Source: Thermoplasmata archaeon (GTDB lineage: Archaea > Thermoplasmatota > Thermoplasmata > Thermoplasmatales > Thermoplasmataceae). Taken from it: DNA of 64,000 bases. Where the stretch lies: positions 450,523 to 514,522 of the forward strand of contig JAJZZX010000001.1 of the NCBI GenBank assembly GCA_021797355.1. The letters run 5' to 3'. The first letter of the stretch is position 1. Every line of letters starts with the position of its first letter. The notes under the pieces were generated by a model that saw nothing but the letters and a program-made list of their open reading frames with translations, was not told the DNA's origin and did no database searches. Position numbers and translations under genes: made by a program. Positions 57,419-64,000 of this stretch are shown one piece after another.

Positions 57419-58573
57419 ATGGCAGAAGAAAACATTACTATCAGCAAAGGTCTTGAGGGTATCTACATAGCTGATACCACACTTTGTAAAATTGACGGGC
57501 AGAATGGAAAGCTCTGGTACAGGGGATATCCAATAGAGACACTAGCCGAAAAGTCAACGTATGAGGAGGTAGCCTTTCTGTTGCTGTACGGTCACCTTCC
57601 AACCAGAAAGGAGCTGGACACTTTCACGCAGAAGCTGATCTCCGAGAGGGAAGTTCCTGATGCAATTGAGAATATTATAGCGGATTTTTCTGGCAGGATG
57701 CACCCCAATGATATTCTAAGAACATGTGTATCAGCATTACCGTCTTTCGATACCGATATGGCAGACAAGTCATCAGACGCTAACTTGGAAAGAGCAATAA
57801 AGCTTACAGCAAAGATGCCAACAATTGTCGCCATGATCGGCAGATACAAGCAAGGCAAGCCAGTTCTGCAGCCATCAGCAAAACTCTCTCATTCCGCAAA
57901 CTTCCTTTACATGCTCACTGGAAAGGAACCTGACAAGGAATCCTCAAAGCTAATTGATCTAATGTTCATTCTTCATGCTGAACATGGAAGCAATGCTTCC
58001 ACTTTTTCGACGCTCGTAACAGGATCTACCCTGGCTGATGTCTACGCTGCCGTTGTAGCTGGAATATCAACACTAAGGGGTCCGCTTCATGGAGGCGCGG
58101 ACGAAGCTGCGCTTAACATGATGAAAGCAATAGGAGAGCCTGACAATACGGAAACATACATTGAAGATGCTCTGGCAGGAAAACAGCGCATTATGGGTTT
58201 CGGCCACCGTGTATACAAAGCATATGATCCTAGGGCAAAGATAGTATATAATTACCTGAAGTCATTCATGCAAAAGACAACAGACCCAAAAATAGAAAAG
58301 TTGCTGGAAATAGCAATAAGGGCCGAGAAACTGATGGAAGAAAAGCTGAGCAAGACGAAAGGGATATGGCCGAACATAGATTTCTTTGCAGGGCCCTTAT
58401 ACACTGCCATGGAAATACCGTCTGACCTATTCACCCCGGTGTTTGCTGCTTCAAGGGTAGTCGGCTGGACAGCACATCTATTTGAATACTGGCAGAACAA
58501 CAGGCTCTTCAGGCCGCTCGATCACTATGTCGGTCAGCTTGATCTCAAGTATGTTCCTATCGATCAGAGATGA
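57419..58573 (+). CDS. gltA: Citrate synthase
   Basis: 384 residues, the short type II-like archaeal/Gram-positive form. 'LHAEHGSNASTFSTL' (His), 'RGPLHGGADEAAL', 'GFGHRVYKAYDPRAK' (His and Arg) and 'WTAHLFEYWQNNRLFRPL' are the catalytic and substrate-binding blocks. Condenses oxaloacetate with acetyl-CoA, linking acs/por to malate and isocitrate dehydrogenases, which are also in the window. Could in principle be a 2-methylcitrate synthase. Confidence 0.94.
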   Translation: MAEENITISKGLEGIYIADTTLCKIDGQNGKLWYRGYPIETLAEKSTYEEVAFLLLYGHLPTRKELDTFTQKLISEREVPDAIENIIADFSGRMHPNDILRTCVSALPSFDTDMADKSSDANLERAIKLTAKMPTIVAMIGRYKQGKPVLQPSAKLSHSANFLYMLTGKEPDKESSKLIDLMFILHAEHGSNASTFSTLVTGSTLADVYAAVVAGISTLRGPLHGGADEAALNMMKAIGEPDNTETYIEDALAGKQRIMGFGHRVYKAYDPRAKIVYNYLKSFMQKTTDPKIEKLLEIAIRAEKLMEEKLSKTKGIWPNIDFFAGPLYTAMEIPSDLFTPVFAASRVVGWTAHLFEYWQNNRLFRPLDHYVGQLDLKYVPIDQR

Positions 58574-58916: not shown

Positions 58917-58936
58917 TATGGTTAGATCAAGTGCAG

Positions 58937-59857
58937 TTGGAGAAAATGAACGATGCAGACTCTTTCTCGACGCCTGATGTTGATCGGAGAAATGGAGGGA
59001 TCCGGAAACAATTTCAGTGGAAGGAGACATACACATATTTCATGTTCATAGTTCCTGCACTTGCATATGTAATAGCTCTGTCGTTTTATCCTGCAGCAGA
59101 AGCTGTTTTCGGCAGCTTTCAGACTCCGACAAAGCATTTCGTTCTTAGTAATTACAGTGCTGTAGTGAGCATGGGGCTTGTTACATCAGTTGTTGATACT
59201 GTGATTGTAAGTATCGGTGCTCTCGTAATCCAGTTTCTGCTGGCACTTGCCATTGCAACCATACTCACCAAGAAATTTGTTGGGAAGGGCGCCTTTTCGA
59301 CACTTATCATTCTTCCGTTTGGCGTTGCTACTGTTGTGTCTGGTTTCATATTTTCCATAGTCTTTTCAGCAGTTGGCGGTTATGCAAATTCATTCTTGGT
59401 ATCTCTCGGGCTTCATCCCGTGAACTGGTACTCTAACAGATACTCAGAAATGGTAATAGTTATGTTTTCGGATTCCTGGAAAAATACGCCCCTTGTAGCT
59501 TTGATCCTGCTATCTGGGCTCACAAGCCTGTCACCAACGTTGAGAGAATCTGCCATGGTAGACGGTGCCGGTCCCTTGCGGAGATTTCTATATATTACTG
59601 CGCCCAATGTAAAGGGAACAATGGCCATAGCCATGATGATCAGGGGCGTCAGTGAATTTAACATTTTTGCACTCCCGCTAATACTGATCGGATATCATCC
59701 AATTCTGCTCACAACATTAGTTTACGAAAATTACAACCTTTCATCCGTTACATTATATTATTCTTATGCTGCCGCAGTGTTTCTCCTCATCTTTATTCTC
59801 GTTTTTTCCTCAGTCATCATTTGGGCAGGAGGTGTGAAATCATATGCAAGTTCGTGA
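58937..59857 (+). CDS. ABC importer permease, MalF/UgpA type
   Basis: About 306 residues, six TM helices after a 35-residue cytoplasmic tail. The coupling-loop EAA motif is 'LRESAMVDGAGPLRRFLYITAPNVKG', typical of carbohydrate-type (CUT1) importers. Start: TTG 58937 fits the TATA spacing; GTG 58931 and ATG 58946 are alternatives. Overlaps the second permease by 14 bases. Partners are the ATPase downstream and the solute-binding protein at 61837-63276. Confidence 0.87.
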   Translation: MEKMNDADSFSTPDVDRRNGGIRKQFQWKETYTYFMFIVPALAYVIALSFYPAAEAVFGSFQTPTKHFVLSNYSAVVSMGLVTSVVDTVIVSIGALVIQFLLALAIATILTKKFVGKGAFSTLIILPFGVATVVSGFIFSIVFSAVGGYANSFLVSLGLHPVNWYSNRYSEMVIVMFSDSWKNTPLVALILLSGLTSLSPTLRESAMVDGAGPLRRFLYITAPNVKGTMAIAMMIRGVSEFNIFALPLILIGYHPILLTTLVYENYNLSSVTLYYSYAAAVFLLIFILVFSSVIIWAGGVKSYASS

Positions 59858-60656
59858 AATTGGCCTCTATGCTGTGGTATTTATCCTTGCGGTAATTTTT
59901 GTTTACCCGCTTTATGTATTGTTTCTGATCTCCTTTGTCCCTGTCACATATACGTTTGGTCAAATATACCCCGCACAGTTTCCTGTGGCCCTCACCTTAC
60001 AGAATATTATTACGTCATTTCACACTGTGAGCCTGGTTAATCCGCTAATACGTAGCTTTGAGGTAGCCCTAATGGTGGCTACCCTCTCGCTTGCCATGGG
60101 CATTCCTGCCGGGTATGGTCTGAGCAAGATAAAGTCTGGAATAGCCAACATCATAGTTGTCCTGCTTTTCTTTGTCAACATGATGCCCGGCATCGTCGTA
60201 GCCATACCCATTGCTGCTGAATTCATCAGAGTGGGGCTTTACGACAACCTTGTTGGAATCGCGTTATCGCAGGAGCTAGTTGTTTTGCCACTCTCTGTTT
60301 TCATAATGCTTGGCGGCTTCAGGTCTATCCCCAAGGATCTTGATAATCAGGCACGAGTTGACGGTGCTGGTCTGCTAACCTCCTTGGGTCGAATTTCCAT
60401 ACCCCTTGTCGTTCCGGCAGTAATAGTCACCTTTCTTCTGTCATGGATGACGTCATGGGATGAGTTCACATACGCAGTCATAATATCACCAGGAAACCCA
60501 ACGTTTCCCGTCCAGCTCTACAATTACGTTACCAGGGCACTGCCATATGAAGCCAGTGCATTTGCTCTTATTGTGACCATCCCAGTCATAATACTTGCCG
60601 CAATTTTGCAAAAATACCTTAAGGGAGAGTATCTCACGGGAGGATTAGTAGGATGA
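59844..60656 (+). CDS. ABC importer permease, MalG/UgpE type
   Basis: 270 residues, six TM helices, EAA motif 'LDNQARVDGAGLLTSLGRISIPLV', preceded by 'IFVYPLYVLFLISFVP' TM1. The 'SWDEFTYAVIISPGN' motif near the C-terminus is characteristic of MalG-type subunits. Forms the transmembrane pore with the upstream permease. ATGA-type four-base overlap with the ATPase gene. Confidence 0.88.
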   Translation: MQVREIGLYAVVFILAVIFVYPLYVLFLISFVPVTYTFGQIYPAQFPVALTLQNIITSFHTVSLVNPLIRSFEVALMVATLSLAMGIPAGYGLSKIKSGIANIIVVLLFFVNMMPGIVVAIPIAAEFIRVGLYDNLVGIALSQELVVLPLSVFIMLGGFRSIPKDLDNQARVDGAGLLTSLGRISIPLVVPAVIVTFLLSWMTSWDEFTYAVIISPGNPTFPVQLYNYVTRALPYEASAFALIVTIPVIILAAILQKYLKGEYLTGGLVG

Positions 60657-61636
60657 CAGCAAAATTGGAACTTAGGAATTTGACGCAGATATTCGGACAG
60701 AAAGTGGTTCTCGATCATCTCAATCTTGCAATAGAGGACGGAGAGTTCTTTGTAATATTGGGCCCTTCTGGAACAGGAAAATCGACATTGCTTAGAACCA
60801 TAGTCGGTATAGAAAGGCCAGTTTCCGGTCAGATATTTGTTGACGGGCGTGATGTCACTGGCCTACCTCCTAACAAGCGTGATATTTCCATGGTTTTCCA
60901 GAACTACGCTCTTTACCCCAATATGACCGTATTTCAAAATATAGCGTTCCCACTTAAGATGGCAGGACTGGACAAAAACAGCATTAAGGAAAAGGTAACT
61001 GAAATTGCTACAAAACTCAATATAGTTTCAGAACTGGACAAGAACGTTACACTTCTCAGTGGAGGCCAGAAACAGAGGGTGGCACTGTGCCGCGCTCTGG
61101 TAAGGAATCCGGCAATGTTCCTGCTTGATGAGCCACTTAGCAACCTGGATGCAAGAGTTCGCTACACAGCCAGGGAAGAGCTTAGGAAGATACAGAAGGA
61201 ATTCGATCAGACTTTCGTATATGTTACACACGATCAGAGTGAGGCACAGAACCTCGCCGACAGAGTCGGGGTGCTGAGAAACGGAAAAGTGGAGCAAATT
61301 GGTTCATACAGGGATCTGTATGAAAAGCCTTCGACAAAGTGGGTCGCCGATTTCATAGGAGAATATCCCATGAATTTTATAGACGGTCCCCTAATGGGGC
61401 TGGACGAAAGTTTGGAAATAGGCTTTAGAGCTTACTGGGTTGAAACCGGATCTGGTGATCTAGAAGCAACAGTCATGGCTTCAGAGCTTGTTCACGAGAC
61501 CTATTTTGTATATGCAAAGATGGGTGATCGCAATCTCGTTCTGAAATCATCATTCAGGCCTGAAAACGGTTCTCGGGTTTCCTTCAGTGTAAAGAAATTC
61601 AATATTTATAAGGATGGGAAAATAGTGGAAAACTAG
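60653..61636 (+). CDS. ABC importer ATPase, MalK/UgpC/MsmK type
   Basis: 327 residues. Walker A 'GPSGTGKST' (37-45), Q-loop 'MVFQNYALYPNMTV', signature 'LSGGQKQRVALCRAL', Walker B 'MFLLDEPLSNLDARVR', H-loop 'VTHDQSEA'. The C-terminal TOBE-like domain (from about 235) is shorter than in MalK. Energises sugar uptake through the two permeases. The following 200-base gap (61637-61836) between convergent genes contains no ORF. Confidence 0.93.
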   Translation: MTAKLELRNLTQIFGQKVVLDHLNLAIEDGEFFVILGPSGTGKSTLLRTIVGIERPVSGQIFVDGRDVTGLPPNKRDISMVFQNYALYPNMTVFQNIAFPLKMAGLDKNSIKEKVTEIATKLNIVSELDKNVTLLSGGQKQRVALCRALVRNPAMFLLDEPLSNLDARVRYTAREELRKIQKEFDQTFVYVTHDQSEAQNLADRVGVLRNGKVEQIGSYRDLYEKPSTKWVADFIGEYPMNFIDGPLMGLDESLEIGFRAYWVETGSGDLEATVMASELVHETYFVYAKMGDRNLVLKSSFRPENGSRVSFSVKKFNIYKDGKIVEN

Positions 61637-61836: not shown

Positions 61837-63276
61837 TTAGACTTCAAGGGGCTTGTAGCTTCCATTCTCGTAGTTGGACGCCACCGTTGGACCGTAGTTT
61901 GACTCCAGGAAGTTGTAAAGCTGCTGGTTTTCATGACTCAAGACGCTCGCAATCTGTGTGTAGCTTCCGCCATCAACTATGAGAGTTGTCCATGCATCGT
62001 CTATGAGTGTCTGCCATTCGGATATCCATGGAACCGGTGTCCTTAGAAAAACACCCTCCTTGATTGCCTGTTCTGATACGTTTGCAACAGAGACGTTGTT
62101 CTCGACCTTCATTCCTAGAGCCGTCAGGTTAACTGATCCAGGCCATTGATAGTCCATTACAGTGTACTTATTGCTAGCAAGTCCTTTATAGGTGGCCCAG
62201 TACGAAGTCTTATATTCTGGGCTGAAGTATTTGCTCAGGTTATAGATGTATTCCATTGCCTGAATATCCCCGGTATCATTGAAATTCAGGGGATTCCCTC
62301 CAAACTGTACCATCCACTGGTAAAGTTCGGTTGCAGTGCTTGCTCCTCCGTGACCCTGGAAATTTATCATTCCGATTCCGTACTTGTTATAGAGAATCTT
62401 AGCGTCTGTCAGCAGGGCGCTGTCGTTATTGGGTAGGTTGGAAATTCCGGCATTCTTCAGGGCAGTATAGTTTATCCAGACTAGCGGGATGTTTACCCTC
62501 TCTGTAATGAAGTATATGCCACCAAATACTGCTGTCTCGTAGTTTGTAACCTGGGATATGGACGATATAATGTCGCTGGGCATTACTGTAGATGCCATGC
62601 TGGTCAGGTTTGCAAGATCATTGTCGTAAAACAGTGTTCCAACATCAAGATTGTCAATGCTCATTACTATCGCCCTTGAGATTGCGAAGCTAGATCCACT
62701 TCCTGTCCCAGCAGCTTCAAATGACTGAACTCCAGAAACAATATCTGTAGCAGGCTCGTTCACGTAGTCAACCTTAATATTTTTGAACTCGCTTTGGAAA
62801 GCATTAATAATGCCCTGCACAAATGTGGCGTCAGTTGGAGTGATATCGTCATAGTAGTATATTGTAACAGTGGCATTGGACGCAGAATATATGCTGCTGT
62901 CAAAGGAATTCTGGGAAGCGCTCATTCCACCGTAAGCATTCTTGTCCACTGGTATGAAGCCGGTGGCATTAAGGTATTCTTGCTGTACATAGGGGGACAT
63001 CATGTACGCTAAAAACTGCTCAATGGCGGTCATGTCAGGAGATCCCCTCGCTACAGCAAGAACATCTCCGCCCACCAGATGTGCACTGTTATTCACTCCT
63101 GCCGGGCCGGGATATACCGCAAGGTATTGTGGCTGGGTAGTTGTAGGGGTAGTCTTAGGTTTGCTAAGTTCATATCCTACAACCGAACCCACCACAATGA
63201 TCACAATGGCAACTGCAATTATTGCACCTAGGGTTTTACTAGGCATTTTTTTCTTTTCGGGTTGAGGTTGTTCCAT
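61837..63276 (-). CDS. Membrane-anchored ABC solute-binding protein with rearranged segment order
   Basis: 479 residues: basic cytoplasmic tail (KKK), TM helix about 15-35, Thr/Pro linker (about 38-50), then the binding domain. No lipobox, so held by the uncleaved helix. Residues about 51-130 ('PGPAGV', 'LVGGDVLAVARGSPDMTAIE', 'FLAYMMSPYVQQEY', 'ATGFIPVDKNAY') read like the part that normally lies near the C-terminus of CUT1 binding proteins. The usual N-terminal opening ('VTIYYYDDITPTDATFVQ', 'FKNIKVDYV') follows at 136, and the protein goes from 'DYQWPGSVNL' (375-384) straight to the final 'FLRTPVPWISEW' region (410-421). Faces the permease/ATPase operon on the other strand. Confidence 0.82.
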   Translation of the reverse strand: MEQPQPEKKKMPSKTLGAIIAVAIVIIVVGSVVGYELSKPKTTPTTTQPQYLAVYPGPAGVNNSAHLVGGDVLAVARGSPDMTAIEQFLAYMMSPYVQQEYLNATGFIPVDKNAYGGMSASQNSFDSSIYSASNATVTIYYYDDITPTDATFVQGIINAFQSEFKNIKVDYVNEPATDIVSGVQSFEAAGTGSGSSFAISRAIVMSIDNLDVGTLFYDNDLANLTSMASTVMPSDIISSISQVTNYETAVFGGIYFITERVNIPLVWINYTALKNAGISNLPNNDSALLTDAKILYNKYGIGMINFQGHGGASTATELYQWMVQFGGNPLNFNDTGDIQAMEYIYNLSKYFSPEYKTSYWATYKGLASNKYTVMDYQWPGSVNLTALGMKVENNVSVANVSEQAIKEGVFLRTPVPWISEWQTLIDDAWTTLIVDGGSYTQIASVLSHENQQLYNFLESNYGPTVASNYENGSYKPLEV

Positions 63277-63567: not shown

Positions 63568-64000
63568 ATGAAAGCAAATTCTGTGTCAGCGAATGAGGTG
63601 CCGATAACAGTCGCATATGGTGATGGTATTGGTCCTGAGATAACGAATGCCACTCTGAAGATAATCACAGCAGCCGGCGCAAGGCTCAAAATTGAGGAAA
63701 TAAAGGTTGGAGAGGAAGTATATAAAAAAGGGATCTCCTCAGGAATAGAACCATCCGCATGGGAATCACTGAGAAGAACACGTGTTTTTCTGAAGGCTCC
63801 TATAACAACACCAGAGGGCGGAGGCTACAAGAGTCTCAATGTCACCATAAGAAAGACACTGGGCCTTTATGCTAATGTGAGGCAATGCCCTTCTTACTAT
63901 CCGTTTGTAAGTACCAAACATCCAAAGATGGATGTAGTAATAATAAGGGAGAATGAAGAAGATCTTTACGGGGGAATCGAGCACAGGCAGACTGGCGATG
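63568..64000 (+). CDS. icd: Isocitrate dehydrogenase, NADP-type (3' end outside window)
   Basis: First 144 residues. 'ITVAYGDGIGPEITNATLKII' region minus its ends is the usual opening; 'LKAPITTPEGGGYKSLNVTIRK' holds the isocitrate-binding Ser and Arg of IDH, then 'TLGLYANVRQCPSYYPFVSTKH', 'DVVIIRENEEDLYGGIEHRQ'. The KSLNVT-IRK block and 'ENEEDLY.GIEHRQT' favour isocitrate over isopropylmalate dehydrogenase, of the Thermus/mitochondrial-like subgroup. Start is the ATG at 63568; an AT-rich element at about 63540-63548 lies 25 bases upstream. Confidence 0.88.
   Translation, partial: MKANSVSANEVPITVAYGDGIGPEITNATLKIITAAGARLKIEEIKVGEEVYKKGISSGIEPSAWESLRRTRVFLKAPITTPEGGGYKSLNVTIRKTLGLYANVRQCPSYYPFVSTKHPKMDVVIIRENEEDLYGGIEHRQTGD

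Follow-up and report, generated by a model that had tools for sequence, protein, structure and literature searches.

The gene at positions 61837-63276 of the window, i.e., the whole 64,000-nucleotide stretch analyzed in this work, encodes a substrate-binding protein (SBP) whose three homologous segments are arranged in the order B-A-C, and not in the A-B-C order of its canonical relatives. This arrangement has a single origin, all of its segments are under purifying selection, and the gene has been inherited together with the genes of a transporter. Most probably, segment B of an ancestral A-B-C gene was moved once, and the resulting protein is predicted to retain the usual two-lobed fold and to act as a working Venus flytrap.

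Gene, Protein and Its Segments

The open reading frame begins with ATG and contains no internal stop codons; an intact frame had been claimed in a sequence-only reading of this DNA. The product is a membrane-anchored SBP of the CUT1 type, which would serve an ABC importer and probably binds a sugar. For profile comparisons, relatives were aligned in two sets, A1 (25 permuted relatives) and A2 (25 canonical relatives), and a third profile, A3, comprised B alone. The following parts were distinguished:

61837-63276, minus strand: permuted substrate-binding protein gene, anchor-B-A-C, 479 aa (open reading frame, Pfam, blastp)
63166-63237, minus strand: hydrophobic membrane anchor or signal segment, residues 14-37 (model helix and sequence)
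62932-63126, minus strand: segment B, residues 51-115 (Pfam SBP_bac_8, hhalign, PDB matches, hinge map of PMC13084667)
62875-62931, minus strand: new B-to-A linker, residues 116-134 (alignment A1)
62107-62874, minus strand: segment A, residues 135-390, ending at QWPGSVNLTALGM (Pfam SBP_bac_1, hhalign)
62089-62106, minus strand: A-to-C junction, residues 391-396, the site of B in canonical relatives (A1-A2 profile alignment)
61840-62088, minus strand: segment C, residues 397-479, C-terminal C-lobe helices (GVFLRTPVPWISEW...) (hhalign, blastp)

The N-terminus consists of a charged stretch, a single hydrophobic helix (residues 14-37), and a Thr-rich spacer, and the membrane anchor is conserved in both canonical and permuted relatives (alignments A1 and A2). 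Segment B carries the motifs YLAVYPGPAG, GGDVLAV..., and MSPYVQQEY..TGFIPV. It is joined to A by a linker of about 20 residues, within which '(V)P.IYS.SNAT' is conserved across the permuted clade (alignment A1). Segment A comprises the first N-lobe segment, hinge I, and the first C-lobe segment.

Segment Order Revealed by Domain and Profile Comparisons

Homology to the CUT1-type (cluster D) SBP families SBP_bac_1 and SBP_bac_8 was found with Pfam, and the matches were crossed: positions 206-266 of the SBP_bac_8 profile mapped to residues 50-115, and positions 4-232 of SBP_bac_1 to residues 145-374. For the window protein, the former match was over the cut-off (3e-8) and the latter reached 25.5-25.7 bits (cut-off of 26); among the permuted members, SBP_bac_1 was matched by 21 of 25 and SBP_bac_8 by 18 of 25. 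The same crossing was visible within single PDB targets in a phmmer search; in GacH, for example, residues 25-176 aligned with residues 137-301 of the query and residues 276-348 with residues 52-124. The canonical linear order of segments (N-I, C-I, N-II, C-II) is thus broken, B preceding A in all permuted members.

The Pfam scores of four of the six possible arrangements of the pieces were compared. The real order, B-A-C, gave two separate stretches (SBP_bac_8, 34.1 bits; SBP_bac_1, 25.7 bits), and rewriting the protein as A-B-C gave a single continuous match with a gain of 10-12 bits (45.7 and 35.6 bits, respectively). The A-C-B and C-B-A orders scored 34.1/26.9 and 36.6/27.6 bits (SBP_bac_8/SBP_bac_1).

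For the profile tests, the protein was split into B (residues 50-134), A (135-396), and C (397-479). Profiles A1 and A2 aligned in hhalign as one colinear match spanning A through C (E 1.5e-97), with a gap of about 80 columns where the canonical proteins hold B. B alone (profile A3) matched columns 316-382 of the canonical profile (probability 98.5, E 1.6e-15), and its search against all PDB sequences returned only substrate-binding proteins, in the segment of about residues 230-376 (best E 9.5e-7). The significance of the former match and the restriction of the latter to substrate-binding proteins show that the similarity of B to the canonical segment is not due to chance. Moreover, 11 columns of B are occupied by an identical residue at a frequency of ≥80% in the permuted as well as in the canonical group, and the mean protein lengths are 475 aa (permuted) and 471 aa (canonical). 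Every full-length open reading frame was either B-A-C or A-B-C, and no second copy of A, B or C and no duplication intermediate was present in any of the frames examined.

The B-A-C order proposed in the sequence-only reading, its three recognizable homologous pieces, and its statement that nothing stands in the place of B between A and C were therefore all confirmed; the comparison of B with the canonical segment, which had been set beforehand as a check, gave a clear match and did not refute the claim. The segment limits required minor correction: B (there extended to residue 130) has its core at about residues 51-115, followed by the linker (116-134), and A and C occupy about residues 135-390 and 397-479.

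Distribution and Single Origin of the Permuted Order

Relatives of the protein were identified in 50 of the 117 genomes of the order Thermoplasmatales. The full-length permuted gene was present in 26 genomes representing 10 genera of acid-loving archaea, all of them from the window's own family (f1), and two of the genomes with the permuted order (G048 and G069) are single contigs. Among the named permuted relatives are a Cuniculiplasma MAG and Thermogymnomonas acidicola, the latter with a broken form of the gene. Outside the family, the permuted order was found neither in the order (117 genomes), nor in the class (400 sampled), nor in the phylum (390 sampled), and wherever the order of a match was visible, it was canonical.

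The canonical relatives, at about 33-48% identity in segment A, occur within the window's own genus (G105) and further genera of its family, in another family (f5) of the order, in families f14 and f15 of the class, and on contigs of Nitrososphaeria, Bathyarchaeota, and Sysuiplasma. Genome G079 (99% complete) holds both a near-canonical and a permuted copy (loci L057 and L068), and G049 has one permuted and one distant canonical copy. The window's own genome encodes two other SBP_bac_8 proteins, each matching the profile in one continuous stretch.

In the maximum-likelihood tree based on A and C, with B left out, the 26 permuted rows formed one clade (support 100/99), and the segment order changed only once. 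The permuted proteins were also a single clade in the tree of B alone (99/95), in which permuted and near-canonical B segments together split from the distant canonical group at 100/99. This grouping, the same as in the A+C tree, places B in one subfamily with A and C. The permeases of the permuted loci likewise clustered into one clade (SH-aLRT 100). The agreement of the three trees points to one origin without reversal; independent origins or reversals were rejected, as a single change suffices on the A+C tree. Since the permeases adjacent to the permuted genes form one clade, the binding protein and the transporter have been co-inherited.

Within the permuted gene of T. acidicola JCM 13583 (NZ_BBCP01000008.1; L013, L047, and L079), which was left out of the trees, the sequence is broken across several frames and doubled prolines are present (YPPGPAG, SPPDMS, and TPPTDASF). 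These frame breaks look like sequencing errors of the draft genome and not like a real pseudogene.

Variation of cysteines was also seen in alignment A1. In the columns 'HLLGG[CD]V', most permuted members have Cys after GG, and the window protein and the canonical relatives have Asp; many permuted members carry a second Cys in the B helix ('VQ..[C]'). The paired cysteines in B might form a disulfide, although their presence is inconsistent across the permuted clade.

Gene Neighborhood and Selection

The binding-protein gene is adjoined by genes for two permeases and a MalK-like ATPase (58931-61636), i.e., by the gene set of a CUT1-type transporter:

58931-59857, plus strand: ABC permease 1, GlcT/UgpA/MalF-like, presumed partner (Pfam PF00528; NCBIfam GlcT-like, below cut-off)
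59844-60656, plus strand: ABC permease 2, GlcU/MalG-like, presumed partner (Pfam, NCBIfam, conserved neighbor)
60653-61636, plus strand: ABC ATPase, UgpC/GlcV/MalK-like, convergent with the binding-protein gene (Pfam, NCBIfam, conserved neighbor)

By NCBIfam matches, all of which (UgpB, GlcT, GlcU, and UgpC) lie below the cut-off, the permeases are closest to archaeal GlcT/GlcU and the ATPase to UgpC/GlcV/MalK. The transporter genes were kept in the permuted loci wherever the contig shows the region. In the canonical loci examined (L048-L067), the binding-protein gene is followed on the same strand by the genes of permease 1 and permease 2 and, if the contig extends far enough, of the ATPase, whereas in the permuted loci (L019-L043 and L068-L081) the same three genes are accompanied by the binding-protein gene in at least three arrangements. 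In some loci, including the window, it converges with the ATPase gene; in others, it is divergently oriented on the permease side, or it closes the cluster on the common strand.

The transporter cluster of the window is flanked by putative citrate synthase-like (57419-58573) and isocitrate dehydrogenase-like (63568-64000) genes, as read from the sequence, and loci L053, L054, and L081 likewise have a relative of the latter gene upstream of the one for the binding protein.

For most of the close permuted pairs compared, dN was well below dS in each of the segments B, A, and C. For segment B, the dN/dS values were 0.019/0.115 in the pair L020-L021, and dN of 0.10 and dS of 0.85 were obtained for L036-L040. 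The result is a qualitative one, because dS was saturated in some pairs and the contrast was weaker in L037-L040. Purifying selection acts on segment B as it does on A and C. Together with the 26 full-length genes of a single clade, found in the search for homologs of the same order within Thermoplasmatales that the earlier reading had recommended, this bears out its view of a stable rearrangement and not decay.

Predicted Structure, Hinges and Anchoring

AlphaFold2 modeling gave a pLDDT of 71.9 and a pTM of 0.71 for the permuted protein, which is moderate (the five models span pLDDT 50 to 72), and 78.0 and 0.78, respectively, for a canonical relative. The secondary-structure elements of both models correspond nearly one to one, in the permuted order: two strands (295-298 and 310-317) and two helices (325-336 and 338-347) of the canonical model are matched by strands 50-55 and 69-76 and helices 82-92 and 95-105 of the permuted one, ahead of the elements of A. 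In the sequence-ordered Foldseek search, the canonical model matched TMBP (1eu8) at E 1.3e-19, with a TMq of 0.72 and an rmsd of 3.6 A, and the permuted model retrieved CUT1 SBPs from the PDB with a best E of 1.1e-6, TMq of about 0.5 or less, and rmsd mostly of 6-17 A. Such a poor superposition would be predicted by the permutation, but a badly packed model would give the same result.

Since the profile alignment to Escherichia coli MalE gave no usable match (probability 0.1), TdCIBP and TMBP were used for mapping. TdCIBP (9XF5), which the canonical profile matched best in the PDB, is composed of an N-lobe (residues 53-168 and 320-385) and a C-lobe (172-315 and 394-432) joined by hinges at 169-171, 316-319, and 386-393 (PMC13084667). 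When it was aligned to the permuted profile, hinge II of the window protein mapped to approximately residues 65-68. This implies that B starts with the last strand of the C-lobe (YLAVYPGPAG) and continues through hinge II into the second segment of the N-lobe; hinge III is near the 3' cut. If the limits of TdCIBP are applied, the helix opening C could still be a part of the N-lobe, while the CMMBP boundaries (PMC7676653) place it within the C-lobe. The permuted chain would accordingly cross between the lobes twice (CMMBP) or up to four times (TdCIBP), and we favor two crossings.

Proposed Rearrangement and Alternative Explanations

According to the explanation that we consider most probable, an ordinary A-B-C gene was present in an ancestor within one Thermoplasmatales family, and its segment B was moved, once, to the place between the membrane anchor and A. 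This could have happened by in-frame tandem duplication to A-B-A-B-C, from which the first A and the second B were subsequently lost; direct transposition is the other possible route. From the anchor, the chain would then pass along the last strand of the C-lobe and hinge II into the second N-lobe segment and the linker, and further through the first N-lobe segment, hinge I, and the C-lobe to the C-terminal C-lobe helices. B would dock in cis at its canonical position, so that the usual two lobes form. If the lobes are crossed twice, two of the three interlobe hinges would remain, hinge III would be replaced by the B-to-A linker within the N-lobe and a short A-to-C linker within the C-lobe, and the anchor would be shifted from the first N-lobe strand to the side of the C-lobe and hinge II. 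The protein would deliver its ligand to the neighboring permeases as a normal Venus flytrap.

At the level of the gene, an assembly artefact or a decaying gene is brought to mind by the frame breaks in the one Thermogymnomonas draft, but its probability is negligible: this order recurs in 26 full-length genes of 10 genera, taken from independent genomes of which some are single-contig, and is no assembly error, and with dN well below dS in most comparisons and the gene retained beside the transporter genes in a conserved neighborhood, both error and decay were rejected. The origin of B by fusion, i.e., its acquisition from a different binding-protein gene with loss of the original B, is a more serious although rather doubtful alternative. 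Paralogs of canonical order suitable for such recombination exist in the same family and even in the same genome (G079), yet the B segments of permuted and near-canonical proteins group together to the exclusion of the distant canonical ones, as in the A+C tree. A near-canonical paralog could have been the donor, as the sequence trees do not separate this source from an intragenic move.

Two further alternatives concern the fold and not the origin. A homologous, functional B might dock in the N-lobe of a neighboring molecule, giving a domain-swapped dimer or chain at the membrane. Conservation of both new linkers in the permuted clade would fit this, and the single-chain modeling, with a monomer model of only moderate quality, is compatible with exchange in trans; we nevertheless find it unlikely, since the linker of about 20 residues looks sufficient for docking in cis and the solved relative TdCIBP has only one protomer in its asymmetric unit, and the two lobes of that protomer are complete (PMC13084667). 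It is still less probable that B serves separately as an additional N-terminal domain (e.g., a membrane-proximal spacer or docking module) and that A and C work without a second N-lobe segment. B does adjoin the anchor, and the superposition in the sequence-ordered search was only partial. Against this stand the lack of any other copy of B in the protein, the canonical motifs retained in B, and the unchanged protein length; moreover, because the second N-lobe segment belongs to the N-lobe in the solved members, A and C without B should have a hole in that lobe.

Comparison with Known Systems

All three pieces are homologous to those of the canonical CUT1 (cluster D-I) SBPs of the SBP_bac_1/SBP_bac_8 families, such as TMBP (1EU8), TdCIBP (9XF5), GacH (3JZJ), and MalE, and like them (in archaea) the protein is membrane-tethered, with the genes of two permeases and a MalK/UgpC-type ATPase next to its own. 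It differs from them in the position of B before A instead of between A and C, and in a hinge III that presumably no longer joins the lobes; its gene, unlike those of the canonical loci examined, is not the first of an SBP-TM1-TM2-ATPase operon.

A natural circular permutation of an SBP has been described for TpMglB-2 (Tp0684) of Treponema pallidum ('Type Ic/Cluster Bc'), in which glucose binding is retained and for which anchoring was suggested as the reason for the permutation (PMC4990184). In both cases a tethered sugar-binding protein is permuted naturally and clade-wide, with the two-lobed fold kept (sugar binding and fold are predicted for the archaeal one). TpMglB-2, however, is a Cluster B protein with N-lobe strands at the C-terminus, four interlobe crossings, and a poorly conserved permuted part, whereas the archaeal protein belongs to cluster D/CUT1, has two predicted crossings, a clearly homologous permuted part, and close canonical relatives for comparison. 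It does not fall into Cluster Bc, its sequence being of the SBP_bac_1/8 type and B-A-C being no cyclic shift of A-B-C. Engineered permutants of periplasmic binding proteins and permuted halves of the ribose-binding protein are reported to show that the fold tolerates re-ordering (PMC6335823, PMC9815098); those are man-made, and the archaeal permutation is natural.

A search of the open-access literature returned no paper on permuted cluster D/CUT1 binding proteins, so within that literature the earlier statement that no example is described holds for this SBP class, 'undescribed' being provisional. To our knowledge, natural re-orderings other than circular shifts are rarely documented. The protein may well represent the first segment transposition of the MalE/TMBP class that is natural, conserved over a long time, and non-circular, with two instead of three crossings, a relocated anchor, and preserved function. 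If this is true, the tethering of a flytrap, and perhaps also its closing and docking, was changed without loss of function. The coexistence of related canonical and permuted proteins, about 40% identical in A, in one family, and even in one genome, is a natural experiment on chain order, hinge number, and anchoring. Other permuted proteins may be hidden, because ordinary domain annotation sees only two weak fragments, and a naturally tolerated cut-and-paste site may be practically useful, as the fold is a standard biosensor scaffold. The canonical and permuted copies of G079 are a natural pair for biochemical comparison.
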